A stretch of DNA of 64,000 bases from contig NZ_VOQF01000004.1 in assembly GCF_007994985.1 (NCBI RefSeq), positions 124,001-188,000 of the forward strand, in the 5' to 3' direction. This document shows positions 4,108-61,777 of this stretch, in pieces; the first letter of the stretch is position 1; every line of letters starts with the position of its first letter. Under the pieces are notes generated by a model. It made no database searches. It had not been told where the DNA came from and saw only the letters and a list, made by a program, of their open reading frames with translations. The DNA comes from Metabacillus litoralis (GTDB lineage Bacteria > Bacillota > Bacilli > Bacillales > Bacillaceae). Position numbers and translations under genes: made by a program.

Positions 4108-4189
4108 TTTTTCCTCCTATGCTCTTAAGATCTCATTACATTCTTTTCCACCAGAAACTCTAGTTCCTAAGTTAGCAATAGGAAAACAT

Positions 4190-4336
4190 AAAAAAGACCT
4201 TTGCCAACTTAGGCAAAGGTCTTGCTGAGCATGTTAAACACCGATCATGCCAACAAAGCCGATGGATATAAATCCATGGAATGACGACTTTGTTTTCAGG
4301 AAAGAATTCCTGAACGCTACTCCCCTTTGAGAAGAA
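4190..4336 (-). ncRNA. yybP-ykoY family Mn2+ riboswitch with expression-platform terminator
   Basis: Reading the minus strand from about 4336, the leader opens with the hallmark AAAGGGGAGTAGCG segment (4314-4327). Stem-loops follow, then a 12-bp hairpin (4194-4205 with 4212-4223) ending in a T-run, the usual terminator-type expression platform. The gene 85 bases downstream encodes a TerC-family protein, the classic partner of this riboswitch. In known members Mn2+ binding prevents termination and turns the exporter on. Confidence 0.9.
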
Positions 4337-4440
4337 GAATATTAAGTTATATCCATCATACTTTCAGTCAATGGTAAATGTCAACATTTTTTCCTTAAAT
4401 TATATTAACCTACCATATTAACCTTAGTGTTGCTACATTT

Positions 4441-25253: not shown

Positions 25254-25281
25254 AAACTGAATTAAATAGAAATTACCAATT

Positions 25282-25383
25282 TCTACTAGGGGAGTCCATT
25301 AGCCTGGACTGAGAGAAGAACGCGTTAGAAGTTCTTTGACCCTTTGAACCTGATCTGGATGATACCAGCGTAGGGAAGTAGTA
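25282..25383 (+). ncRNA. TPP (THI) riboswitch of thiC
   Basis: The leader carries the conserved THI-box blocks in order: CTAGGGGAG, CTGAGAGAAG, GACCCTTTGAACCTGATCTGG and GCGTAGGGAAG, closed by a P1 stem between 25283-25287 and 25377-25381. A terminator follows and thiC is downstream, so TPP is expected to switch thiC off. Confidence 0.96.
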
Positions 25384-25443
25384 ACAGTTGTAGTAAGGAC
25401 TTCCTCTACTGTCCCTTATTTACAATTTTTACCTACATCCTTT

Positions 25444-55624: not shown

Positions 55625-56380
55625 ATGAAAAAATTATTACTTACACTATTTATATCTCTATTAGCTCTATCTCTTGCTGCATGTAACAATGATGAAGAAA
55701 AGCAAGCAGATGATGCTAAAACGACGGAAAAGGTAGAGAAAACAGAAGAGGCTGCTGTTGACCAGGAAGAAATGCAAAAAAAGCTGGATAAACAAAAGGT
55801 TGAGGCTGATAGTGTTGTCGCAATTGTAAATGGACAAGAAATCAAAGGAACAGAATTTAATGATGCCCTTTCACTATTTCAATCAAATGCAATGAGCCAG
55901 GGACAAGATGTAACAAATGATGAGTTAGCAAAACAATTGAAAGATAGCTCGCTTGATTTTATTGTTGGACAAACCTTAATCATGCAGGAAGTAGATAAAA
56001 AAGGTTATACAGCTTCGGAGGAAGAAATTGATAAAGCGCTAGAAACTGAAAAAGCACGTTTTAAAACAGAAGAAGAATTTGAAGCAGCTTTAAAAGAAAG
56101 TGAGTTAACAGTAGAGGATCTTAAATCTCAAATCTCTGATAATGTTAAAATCACACAATACCTAGATAAAGACGTTAAAGTTGAAAAAGTAACAGATGAT
56201 GAAGTAAAGAAGTATTATGATTCCCTTGTCTCAGCTAATGGCGAATCAGAAGAAACACCAAAATTCGAAGACGTTAAAGAAACATTAAAAGCGAATCTTG
56301 AGCAACAAAAATCACAGCAAGAAATTAGTGCCAAAATTGAAGAACTACGTAAGGGCGCTGAAATAGATTTAAAAATATAA
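55625..56380 (+). CDS. SurA N-terminal-domain lipoprotein (foldase-like, no PPIase domain)
   Basis: The 251-residue lipoprotein has signal peptide and lipobox LSLAAC (Cys 20), an acidic/lysine linker, then a SurA/PrsA-type N-terminal chaperone domain: VVAIVNGQEIKGTEFNDALS (about 65-84), DFIVGQTLIMQEVDKKGYTA (about 117-136), and the helical C-terminal lobe. The parvulin-type prolyl isomerase domain of PrsA is absent. It is probably an extracytoplasmic chaperone for secreted proteins. GAAAGGGGAAAG precedes the ATG, and a strong terminator follows. Confidence 0.87.
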   Translation: MKKLLLTLFISLLALSLAACNNDEEKQADDAKTTEKVEKTEEAAVDQEEMQKKLDKQKVEADSVVAIVNGQEIKGTEFNDALSLFQSNAMSQGQDVTNDELAKQLKDSSLDFIVGQTLIMQEVDKKGYTASEEEIDKALETEKARFKTEEEFEAALKESELTVEDLKSQISDNVKITQYLDKDVKVEKVTDDEVKKYYDSLVSANGESEETPKFEDVKETLKANLEQQKSQQEISAKIEELRKGAEIDLKI

Positions 56381-56472: not shown

Positions 56473-56590
56473 CAGGAATAACGTGCTTATCCCACTCTTT
56501 TAATCAACGACAACTATCTATCGCAATAGATTGTAAAAAGAATAAAATCTCATACATAAAAAGTAACGTAGTTGTTCATACTATCACTAA

Positions 56591-56677
56591 GGACTTGTAG
56601 CTCAACGTTTAGAGCAGTCAGTAGTAAAAGCACCTTTATTGCTGTACTTCTTGTGGGTTTAAATCCCACCAAGTCCT
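56591..56677 (+). ncRNA. orphan tRNA-like RNA with extended anticodon-position arm
   Basis: A cloverleaf can be drawn by eye: 7-bp acceptor stem (56591-56597 with 56670-56676, extendable to 9), T8-A9 linker, 4-bp D stem (56600-56603 with 56612-56615), a 13-bp arm with one bulge (56616-56628 with 56635-56648) and 6-base loop, a 4-base variable region, and a perfect 5-bp T stem with 7-base loop (56653-56669). The D loop has no GG and the T loop is TTTAAAT instead of TTCAAAT, so the elbow pairs of a working tRNA are missing. There is no CCA and no normal anticodon loop. It may be a pseudo-tRNA or a structured RNA of another kind. Confidence 0.65.
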
Positions 56678-56706
56678 TACATTACTCATAAAAGTTTTTT
56701 GAAATA

Positions 56707-56742
56707 AAATAACGTGCTTCGATGTAAGAAGCACGTTATTTA
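56707..56742. terminator. bidirectional terminator between tRNA-like RNA and thiY
   Basis: A perfect 14-bp stem (AAATAACGTGCTTC at 56707-56720, complement at 56729-56742) has A/T-rich flanks on both sides, 8 bases past the thiY stop. Confidence 0.85.
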
Positions 56743-56749
56743 CCGATTA

Positions 56750-57751
56750 CTATTCAACTATATTAACAAAAATGTCATCAACAACTGGTTCTTTTTCAAT
56801 TAATTCTGCTTCCTTCATCCAGCTTATTGTTTCTTCCCATTGTTTCTTATCTTGACTACCGAAACCTGATTCAGACTTCATTAAAGGTAATAAAATCTCC
56901 AAGCTTTGAACCTCAACTTCCTCAACTAGTGGAAAATTTGCTTCATCTTGATTGCTTAATAAAATCTCTAATGCTTCCTCTGGATTTTCAGCAGTAAATT
57001 CATATCCTTTAGTTGCTGCTCGCCAGAATGCTTTAATGTGCTCTTGCTCTTCTTCCCATGTTTGATCACTTGTTACAGCAACTAGTTCATAATAGCTTGG
57101 AATACCAAATTCTGTTGGGTTAATATTTCGAGTTTCATGACCCTCGTGCTTTAATACTGGTACTTCATGATTAATATACGCTCCAATTACAGCATCTACA
57201 TTATTACTCACAATTGAGGAACCTAGTTCAAAACCAACATCAATCATTTCAACATTTTCAGGATTACCACCATCATTTTTAACCATTGATTGAATAAGTG
57301 ATTCATTTAACGGAATACCAGGGAAGCCAACTTTTTTACCTTCTAAGTCTTTTGGAGACTGTATTTCACTATCTTCCATAAATATAACTCTATTTAAAGG
57401 AGAACGAACGATGGCTCCTACTGATTTTATTTTAACATCTTGATTTGCACGTGCTATTATAACATCTGGTTGATAAGAGATACCAAGTGTTACCTTTCCT
57501 GTTGCTGCTAAATTAATTGGATCTGTTGGATTTGCCGGAAATTGAATATCAACATTCAGTCCTTCTTCTTCAAAATATCCTTTTTCTTTAGCAATGTATA
57601 AATAACTATGAACAGCATTTGGATACCAATCCAGCATTATACTAACATCTTTTAACTGTTTCTTTTCTTCTCCACCTGTACTACTTTTTCCAGCACATGC
57701 AGTTAACATCCCAACTACTAAACATAACATCATTATCAATACTTTTTTCAT
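56750..57751 (-). CDS. thiY: thiamine-pyrimidine ABC transporter substrate-binding lipoprotein ThiY
   Basis: ThiY binds formylaminopyrimidine (a thiamine breakdown product) for import. The 333-residue protein has lipobox LTACA (Cys about 19), then an NMT1/THI5-like periplasmic-binding fold starting VSIMLDWYPNAVHSYLYIAK (about 37-56), with GKVTLGISYQPDVIIA and GFELGSSIVSNNVDAVIGAY further on. The ATG at 57751 follows GGAGG and overlaps the thiX stop (ATGA); the GTG upstream is inside thiX. It is the last gene of the salvage operon. Confidence 0.93.
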   Translation of the reverse strand: MKKVLIMMLCLVVGMLTACAGKSSTGGEEKKQLKDVSIMLDWYPNAVHSYLYIAKEKGYFEEEGLNVDIQFPANPTDPINLAATGKVTLGISYQPDVIIARANQDVKIKSVGAIVRSPLNRVIFMEDSEIQSPKDLEGKKVGFPGIPLNESLIQSMVKNDGGNPENVEMIDVGFELGSSIVSNNVDAVIGAYINHEVPVLKHEGHETRNINPTEFGIPSYYELVAVTSDQTWEEEQEHIKAFWRAATKGYEFTAENPEEALEILLSNQDEANFPLVEEVEVQSLEILLPLMKSESGFGSQDKKQWEETISWMKEAELIEKEPVVDDIFVNIVE

Positions 57752-58500
57752 TCTGTTTTCCTCCATTTTAATATCCTTTTTTCCACTGCACCAACAATTA
57801 CAAAAAGTAAAATTCCAATTGCTGATAAAATAACGATTGGTGCGAAAACGCCTGCACCATCAAATTGAGTCATCATCCGTCTACTAAAATAACCTAATCC
57901 TGCTTGTGCACCAATCCACTCACCTATTGCCGCTCCAATTACACTGAGTGTGACAGCTACCTTCAGTCCAGAAAAAAAGTTTGGAGCACTACCTGGAACT
58001 TGTAGCTTAAAGAAAATATCTTTTTTACTTGCACCCATTGTTAATAATAAATCTTTATATTCCTTATTCGTCGCACGTAATCCATCAAAGGTATTAACGG
58101 TAATTGGAAAAAACGTGATCAAAACGGTTACGATAACCTTGCTCCAAATTGAATATCCAAACCAAAGCACAAAAATTGGTGCTAATGCTATTATTGGAAT
58201 TGTTTGAGATGAGATGAGCAGCGGATAAAATGTCTTTTCTACTGTTTTATTCACACTCATCCAAACTGCAAGTCCAACACCAATAACAATTGATATAAAA
58301 AGTCCGATTAGTATTACCAAAGTTGTTGCTGGTAAGTGATTAAGAAACAAAGGCTCTCTTAACTCCCAAAGCTTTAATAAAATTTCAATAGGTGTTGGTA
58401 AAATAAAACCTAAATTAACAATACGAGCTCCAATTTCCCAAATACATAGAAGAATTACAACGAGTAAACATGAAGCTCCGTATTTTTGTATATATGTCAT
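57748..58500 (-). CDS. thiX: thiamine-pyrimidine ABC transporter permease ThiX
   Basis: The 250-residue permease has six membrane helices and the BPD-type EAA loop ATNKEYKDLLLTMGASKKDI (about 140-159), where the ATPase docks. It is of the SsuC/TauC/ThiX group, here tied to pyrimidine uptake by its neighbours. Its start overlaps the thiZ stop by 4 bases and its stop overlaps thiY, indicating coupled translation. Confidence 0.93.
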   Translation of the reverse strand: MTYIQKYGASCLLVVILLCIWEIGARIVNLGFILPTPIEILLKLWELREPLFLNHLPATTLVILIGLFISIVIGVGLAVWMSVNKTVEKTFYPLLISSQTIPIIALAPIFVLWFGYSIWSKVIVTVLITFFPITVNTFDGLRATNKEYKDLLLTMGASKKDIFFKLQVPGSAPNFFSGLKVAVTLSVIGAAIGEWIGAQAGLGYFSRRMMTQFDGAGVFAPIVILSAIGILLFVIVGAVEKRILKWRKTE

Positions 58501-61504: not shown

Positions 61505-61586
61505 TGAATGTACATGTTTATAACAATCCGCTTTTTAAAAAATAGATGATAGCGGGAGTATTCGTTATTTCACGTATATAGTCAAA

Positions 61587-61677
61587 CACCTCTTCCCTAC
61601 GCTAGTATTATCTAGATCAGGTAATAAGGGTCAAGGCATAATGCCTCTCTCAGCTTAAGAAAGCTCCCCTAGTGGTG
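61587..61677 (-). ncRNA. TPP (THI) riboswitch of the ylmB-tenA-thiZXY operon
   Basis: On the minus strand the THI-box blocks occur in order: CTAGGGGAG, GCTGAGAGAGG, GACCCTTATTACCTGATCTAG and GCGTAGGGAAG, closed by a CACC/GGTG-type P1. A terminator follows. TPP should repress the salvage operon. Confidence 0.95.
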
Positions 61678-61777
61678 AAAAGATTTATATTTAGTTTGTG
61701 ATTGATAGATTACATTATTTTTAACATATAATTCTATTTTTAGCAAACAAAATTAATAACTGCTCACATACACTCCC

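Follow-up and report, generated by a model that had tools for sequence, protein, structure and literature searches.

The window, a stretch of 64,000 nucleotides from Metabacillus litoralis, contains between a lipoprotein gene and thiY a cloverleaf of 87 nucleotides that resembles a tRNA but carries a long hairpin where the anticodon arm would be expected. Pseudo-tRNAs are commonly written off as debris. The question raised by this locus is whether the element is a tRNA in decay, a working tRNA of unusual build, or an RNA whose tRNA fold has been kept for something other than decoding.

The window copy and its fold

The cloverleaf lies on the forward strand at 56591-56677, between the lipoprotein gene (55625-56380, forward strand) and thiY (56750-57766, reverse strand), with which it is convergent. 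Its parts and the flanking signals are as follows.

56553-56558, forward strand: -35 element TACATA of a predicted forespore (sigma-F/G-type) promoter, scored with a SASP-trained matrix; the same sequence is found at locus L038
56577-56583, forward strand: -10 element CATACTA of this predicted promoter; from the distance, the start is predicted at or next to G56591
56591-56597, forward strand: 5' strand of the acceptor stem, GGACUUG, from the fold; its pairs covary in the family
56600-56615, forward strand: D arm with stem GCUC/GAGC (56600-56603/56612-56615), the stem invariant in 40/40 members, the loop without GG here
56616-56648, forward strand: hairpin replacing the anticodon arm, with loop AGCACC (56629-56634) and a bulge at 56645; 11/11 modelled pairs change on both sides in the family
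56653-56669, forward strand: T arm (stem 56653-56657/56665-56669) with loop UUUAAAU, without C56 in the window copy
56670-56677, forward strand: 3' strand of the acceptor stem, CAAGUCC, and discriminator U; no CCA encoded
56713-56735, no strand assigned: terminator-like hairpin of -11.8 kcal/mol with a weak T run after it, a possible common terminator of the RNA and the convergent thiY

The unconstrained minimum-energy fold of 56591-56677 is exactly this cloverleaf, at -33.1 kcal/mol; 200 shuffles of the interval gave a mean of -16.7 (sd 3.1), none was as low, and the native sequence is thus about 16 kcal/mol better (z -5.36). The acceptor stem (56591-56597/56670-56676), the D and T stems, and the 13-bp middle arm with its single bulge at 56645 and loop AGCACC had all been drawn in an initial annotation made from the sequence, and each is present in the computed fold. 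That annotation had also named a tRNA covariance model as a check, and the Rfam tRNA model (release 15) matches 56591-56677 with 42.2 bits against a gathering threshold of 29 (E 1.4e-5 in 64 kb); ARAGORN, run on the window, reports no tRNA and no tmRNA at these positions. The D loop, AACGTTTA / AACGUUUA, is without GG, and the T loop, TTTAAAT (UUUAAAU), is without C56, so that both absences hold for the window copy as annotated.

Near the element, a direct repeat, ATAACGTGCTT, was seen by eye at about 56478-56489, upstream of the RNA, and at about 56709-56719, in the 5' half of the terminator-like hairpin; an upstream copy resembling it is also present in L002/L039, and the repeat is perhaps a local duplication or an alternative pairing partner for the hairpin. 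Elsewhere in the window, Rfam reports two TPP riboswitches and one manganese riboswitch, at 25278-25393 (forward strand), 61577-61680 (reverse strand) and 4184-4337 (reverse strand).

Family, covariation and the missing anticodon

The cloverleaf at 56591-56677 is a member of a conserved RNA family. A DNA search matched 13/60 genomes at E <= 1.1e-8, with the next best match at 0.04, and one genome of the same genus holds a copy 99% identical over the element. The covariance model R1, on which the family counts rest, was built from these 13 homologues. Homologues, to which the initial annotation had looked for a check, are present in 11/21 Metabacillus genomes (R1 scores of at least 91.9 bits) and in 35/397 genomes of the order. 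In the other 10 Metabacillus genomes the best R1 score, 46.3 bits, belongs to ordinary tRNAs, and among the 80 family genomes scored the RNA is absent from all 59 genomes of five other genera; owing to this patchiness, the RNA appears dispensable. The order-level count derives from 38 genomes that match R1 at 1e-10, with one match each, after three false matches were removed by hand (L095 and L097, which are another pseudo-tRNA, and L096, an ordinary tRNA-Arg). The remaining 35 span 18 genera and 13 families, and three of them are weak (55-62 bits); L091-L094 are the weakest members (55-64 bits). An exact pattern run over named genomes returned 19 stretches, from species that include Metabacillus litoralis, M. 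halosaccharovorans, M. niabensis, M. crassostreae, Rossellomorea marisflavi, several Domibacillus, a Cytobacillus, Litchfieldia salsa and Alkalihalobacillus deserti.

Among 512 genomes outside the order (272 of the same class, 240 of the same phylum), nothing exceeded ordinary tRNAs, the maximum being 59.8 bits with model R2 at lengths of mostly 72-75; R2 lies too near ordinary tRNAs, which score up to about 60 bits, and at this level weak members with short arms may go unnoticed among the tRNAs of genomes outside the order. A genome screen with the Rfam tRNA model gave 73 matches, the window element not among them, and absences in that screen are no proof. No match was found among 50,697 phage records, which were searched with a phage origin in mind. 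Of the false matches, L095 (1967-2035) and L097 (1951-2019) hold a different, 69-nt pseudo-tRNA, whose anticodon arm is replaced by a 4-bp stump with a 5-nt loop; in L097 a sigma-G-like box was seen by eye about 21 nt upstream of it. Additionally, the Rfam small RNA BsrC lies in L076 about 175 nt from the tRNA-like RNA (1761-1846).

The family was aligned with 40 members, the near-identical L033, L035, L039, L075 and L089 being left out. Standard pairs make up 97.2% of 1067 paired cells, and 21/27 pairs have changed on both sides, in 139 cells versus 39.1 (sd 7.2) in shuffles; structures slid along the alignment are only 34-44% paired. The two-sided changes include 11/11 pairs of the middle arm, 7/7 of the acceptor and 3/5 of the T stem, and the four D-stem pairs never vary. 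The 40-row alignment was fitted to the model and so favours the structure; in a first, model-free alignment, seven two-sided pairs were already found among 11 distinct sequences. RNAalifold predicts the same structure from the alignment, and 39/40 members, all except L093, adopt this kind of cloverleaf when each is folded by itself without constraint.

Since the pairs are kept and have changed on both sides, simple decay is excluded, as the initial annotation had argued from the perfect stems of one copy; the compensatory changes in the long arm that it had proposed as a test occur in every modelled pair. A decaying ordinary tRNA without function would account for the tRNA-like gene that Rfam and ARAGORN see in many members and for the patchy presence, but it is scarcely credible in view of compensatory changes spread over 18 genera and of a promoter that stands at a fixed distance in most members (see below). 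A local tRNA as the source was also considered and rejected: in the genome of the window the best other DNA match covers 57 bases at 74% (E 0.08), and no near copy occurs among 68 distinct ARAGORN strings, compared by rough scores on unevenly trimmed 3' tails.

The D stem GCUC/GAGC, which is also common in ordinary tRNAs, is invariant in 40/40 members together with U8, A9, A14 and A15. The length of the arm (6 to 14 pairs, counted by eye), its loop, the acceptor pairs and the discriminator (U, A or G) all vary, and CCA is mostly not encoded. Arm loops such as CACCGU or CAUCGU recur in several genera, and the loop is otherwise poorly conserved.

With such an arm, decoding is hard to envisage. 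A working tRNA that decodes some codon despite its unusual arm might explain why ARAGORN calls a tRNA at 21/40 members; however, 10 of these calls are of undetermined identity and 11 are scattered over Thr, Ser, Ile, Asn and Val, the length and loop of the arm vary, the promoter is of the sporulation type, and the ordinary tRNAs of the window genome already cover all 20 amino acids (70 were counted in the stretches fetched). The Rfam tRNA cut-off is reached at 15/20 members tested. No family-wide combination of a 5-bp anticodon stem, a 7-nt loop and one anticodon was found, nor the Trp anticodon described for tRNAOther (PMC3399842), the window copy being without an anticodon loop. As modelled, the middle arm makes a decoding role very unlikely, and a working tRNA is accordingly a far-fetched reading.

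The same variation bears on aminoacylation. The RNA might be an amino-acid donor, charged by an anticodon-blind synthetase and handing its amino acid to a non-ribosomal forespore reaction such as wall, lipid or peptide modification. The acceptor and T stems are kept, and the absence of GG and C56 is reminiscent of staphylococcal cell-wall tRNA-Gly. Against this stands the drift of acceptor identity, which makes a fixed aminoacylation unlikely: pairs 1-7 all change on both sides, the discriminator is U, A or G, CCA is mostly not encoded, and hence no single synthetase identity is visible; furthermore, no transferase gene is a constant neighbour. A donor role is thus improbable.

Promoter, elbow contact and genomic context

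The homologues and the covariation bear out the earlier reading of a conserved, non-decoding pseudo-tRNA, but that reading had missed a sporulation promoter. SASP genes are sigma-G genes, and a sigma-G-like matrix was trained on 23 non-redundant leaders out of 30 (L125 and L128, too short or misplaced, were excluded, and the others were redundant), starting from a sigma-G consensus; it is imperfect, in that some training picks lie inside leaders and L119 was cut on the wrong strand. The matrix was applied to 36 non-redundant upstream regions out of 45, over which its scores sum to 255.6, as against 97.1 (sd 18.9, maximum 148.7) in 200 shuffles. Most members have upstream GTATA or GAATA, a spacer of 16 to 18 nt, and CATACTA or a sequence near it. 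The promoter of the window copy, TACATA-18-CATACTA, placed 7 nt before base 1, scores 9.4, which for this copy alone is reached in 4% of shuffles.

In 27/36 members the distance from the end of the best -10 box to base 1 is 4-9 nt, and the RNA therefore probably starts at its own first base. When the position is locked, 17/36 members reach a score of 6, versus 39/2160 random flank windows and 23/1010 AT-rich windows, and 19/36 stay below it; the upstream windows of the members are AT-richer (75%) than the random ones (63%). Over 32 members, L091-L094 being also dropped, sigma-factor consensuses give z values of 17.3 for G, 15.5 for F, 4.4 for E, 2.6 for H and B, 0.5 for A and 0.0 for K. A single upstream column exceeds the 95% level in an unsupervised column test. 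At the level of the family, -35 and -10 elements of the forespore (sigma-F/G) type are thus found at the correct spacing; judged by promoter type and distance, synthesis of the RNA probably takes place in the forespore, with its start at or next to base 1.

The start may also illuminate the tertiary elbow. Joint loss of its two sides, which the initial annotation had stressed, is true of the window copy but is not a feature of the family: among 36 non-redundant members, 21 keep GG and C56, 6 are without GG only, 9 are without both and none is without C56 only, so that the loss is lineage-specific. The two losses are associated (p 5e-5 over the 36 members, in a statistic that ignores kinship). 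The elbow is intact in 9/9 members whose best promoter match lies at least 16 nt away, versus 12/27 with a near promoter (p 0.005, likewise ignoring kinship); only L076, L078, L079 and L081 among the nine match well, and L080 and L091-L094 score under 7. RNase P reads the elbow stack G19-C56. A transcript that starts at or next to acceptor base 1 would not need RNase P for its 5' end, and the elbow contact may for this reason be lost. This suggests a testable rule: if transcription of a tRNA-like RNA begins at its first base, RNase P becomes dispensable and G19-C56 is free to go.

The surroundings of the RNA change between genera. In Metabacillus its neighbours are the lipoprotein gene (11/11) and thiY (10/11), and in other genera the neighbours differ. 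All 10 Metabacillus genomes without the RNA have thiY; the lipoprotein gene lies within 450 nt of it in L230, L231, L234 and L238, where the model search finds no element, and at about 0.9-1 kb in L236, L237 and L239, and was not found within 1.5 kb of thiY in L232, L233 and L240. A cis element of a neighbouring gene, or a tie to thiamine, was considered and rejected, since the neighbours change between genera and thiY persists without the RNA. Given that thiY, and in four genomes also the lipoprotein gene close to it, persist in its absence, the element is best regarded as an independent, dispensable gene that, most simply, would act in trans. A downstream hairpin of -10 kcal/mol or better within about 60 nt is found in only 8/40 members.

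Plasmids carry the RNA as well: 31/72,556 plasmid records match the exact pattern, from Priestia megaterium or aryabhattai (20 of the 31 among the matches listed), and two Priestia plasmid records (L244, L245) score 73.6 and 73.0 bits. The copy with 73.0 bits belongs to P. megaterium ATCC 14581, a species in laboratory use. In Priestia the RNA sits on large plasmids and adjoins a gene annotated as a plasmid stabilization protein; L085, L089 and L090 have the same neighbours as L087. PLSDB gives no feature at the RNA site of two plasmid records, where a locus-tag number is skipped, and the original plasmid annotation probably has an RNA gene there. Occurring on Priestia plasmids, the RNA can travel with them.

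Possible roles and relation to known RNAs

Taken as a description of what the element is, a conserved, non-decoding RNA expressed in the forespore is very probably correct, the expression being read from the promoter. What it does is a matter of lesser confidence. The best explanation overall, which we propose tentatively and at somewhat short of an even chance, is a trans-acting tRNA mimic of about 87 nt, expressed in the forespore of spore-forming Bacillaceae. A free-standing small RNA gene would be transcribed by sigma-G (or F) and would yield a tRNA-like L whose lower limb, a hairpin with 6 to 14 pairs and no anticodon, could not decode. Action in trans is suggested by the change of gene neighbours between genera while the fold is kept. 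The RNA would then occupy a site on a protein or the ribosome that reads the general tRNA shape through the invariant D-arm core, as a competitor or a scaffold, at the time when the forespore makes its last proteins and enters dormancy. Shape mimicry, preferred because only the D-arm core and the overall fold stay fixed, is a plausible mode of action, held with a little more reserve than the explanation as a whole.

A base-pairing small RNA, in which the tRNA scaffold offers its arm or loop to target mRNAs, has a precedent in the forespore small RNA Bvs196, reported in PMC9147052 to interact with mRNAs. However, the arm of the tRNA-like RNA is double-stranded, and arm sequence and loop are poorly conserved despite the recurrence of CACCGU/CAUCGU; pairing through a loop that drifts is unlikely, and the reading as a whole is a good deal less likely than mimicry.

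A second tRNA-like element is found in the 5' leaders of alpha/beta SASP genes. It is a cloverleaf of the form GGGUUA...UAACCC, after which A(A)CCA usually stands. Its D arm is small, a free hairpin replaces the anticodon arm, and a T arm is present; the hairpin is missing in the short Metabacillus form. A strict pattern finds it in 67/397 order genomes of 32 genera, and a reversed control pattern in one genome (G260). In 30/30 of the loci fetched (30 of 67) a SASP start codon lies at most 50 nt from the pattern end (recognised by motif in 28 and by eye in 2), and each of the 30 gives three hairpins inside an outer stem when folded, a structure that the pattern itself fixes in part. The element was reported neither by Rfam (20 loci) nor by ARAGORN (30 loci). 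The loci are listed below.

L118, L119, L126, L127, L136, L137, L140, L142-L146 and L200-L229: SASP-leader loci, by pattern and fold
L126 1391-1440, and L216 at G000:C74:122426-122482: SASP leader of the window genome

The leader of the window genome stands behind a sigma-G-like TGTATA/CATAATA, seen by eye. The leader element and the window RNA share kind and promoter class, not sequence. Their coexistence allows a circuit in which the RNA competes with SASP mRNA leaders for one shared binding factor, thereby tuning the synthesis of SASP. In its favour, SASP leaders of the same genomes hold a cloverleaf, and the leader pattern occurs in 11/35 RNA-positive versus 56/362 RNA-negative genomes (Fisher p 0.03, from hand counts that ignore kinship); yet the two elements differ in sequence, the co-occurrence is weak, and 24/35 RNA-positive genomes are without the strict pattern, which misses the short Metabacillus form. 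Such a circuit is doubtful. Similarly unlikely is the wider reading of a forespore programme of tRNA mimicry, in which SASP leaders and the leaderless sigma-G-made RNA would compete for one tRNA-reading factor, for which RNase P, the CCA-adding enzyme, EF-Tu or the ribosome would be candidates. If true, the programme would link the making of SASP, or the shutdown of translation, to the maturation of the spore and would represent a new class of regulatory RNA, partly plasmid-borne.

Apart from these readings, the compensatory change, the stage-specific promoter and the lack of an anticodon make the family a clear instance of a tRNA fold under selection for something besides decoding, and the forespore-made tRNA mimic that we propose is a directly testable candidate for a part in shutting down translation and RNA turnover in the forespore.

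The open-access literature searched yielded no conserved family of anticodon-less tRNA-like RNAs under a sporulation promoter, and Rfam showed no separate family for it; several known RNAs share some of its features. The cell-wall tRNA-Gly species of staphylococci are variant tRNAs with altered D and T loops and a use outside translation, and in these loops they resemble the window RNA; unlike it, they have retained an anticodon arm, and their identity is fixed. tmRNA combines the upper half of a tRNA with a long helix that replaces the anticodon stem, as in the window RNA. However, the latter is a closed cloverleaf of 87 nt in which an mRNA-like or tag domain was not found, and ARAGORN reports no tmRNA.

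Among forespore small RNAs, CsfG and Bvs196 are described in PMC9147052 as free-standing and controlled by sigma-F/G in the forespore, which is also the arrangement and promoter type predicted for the window RNA. Bvs196, however, is 294 nt long, in contrast to about 87 nt here; the term tRNA is absent from the text of that article, whereas the tRNA family is the only one that Rfam reports at the window RNA.

Pseudo-tRNAs with non-translational roles are already known from tRNAOther of Bacillus cereus, to which the initial annotation had compared the element. According to PMC3399842, the anticodon of tRNAOther is that of Trp, and the RNA is embedded in a longer transcript whose 5' ends lie 349 and 565 nt upstream; it is poorly charged in vitro, is not found in polysomes, responds to iron and has a role outside translation. 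Compared by description, the two are of the same kind, that is, pseudo-tRNAs of Bacillaceae with a role outside translation, which for the window RNA we infer. They differ in that tRNAOther has an anticodon, a long transcript and an iron response, whereas the window RNA has no anticodon, a forespore-type promoter and a predicted start at its own first base.
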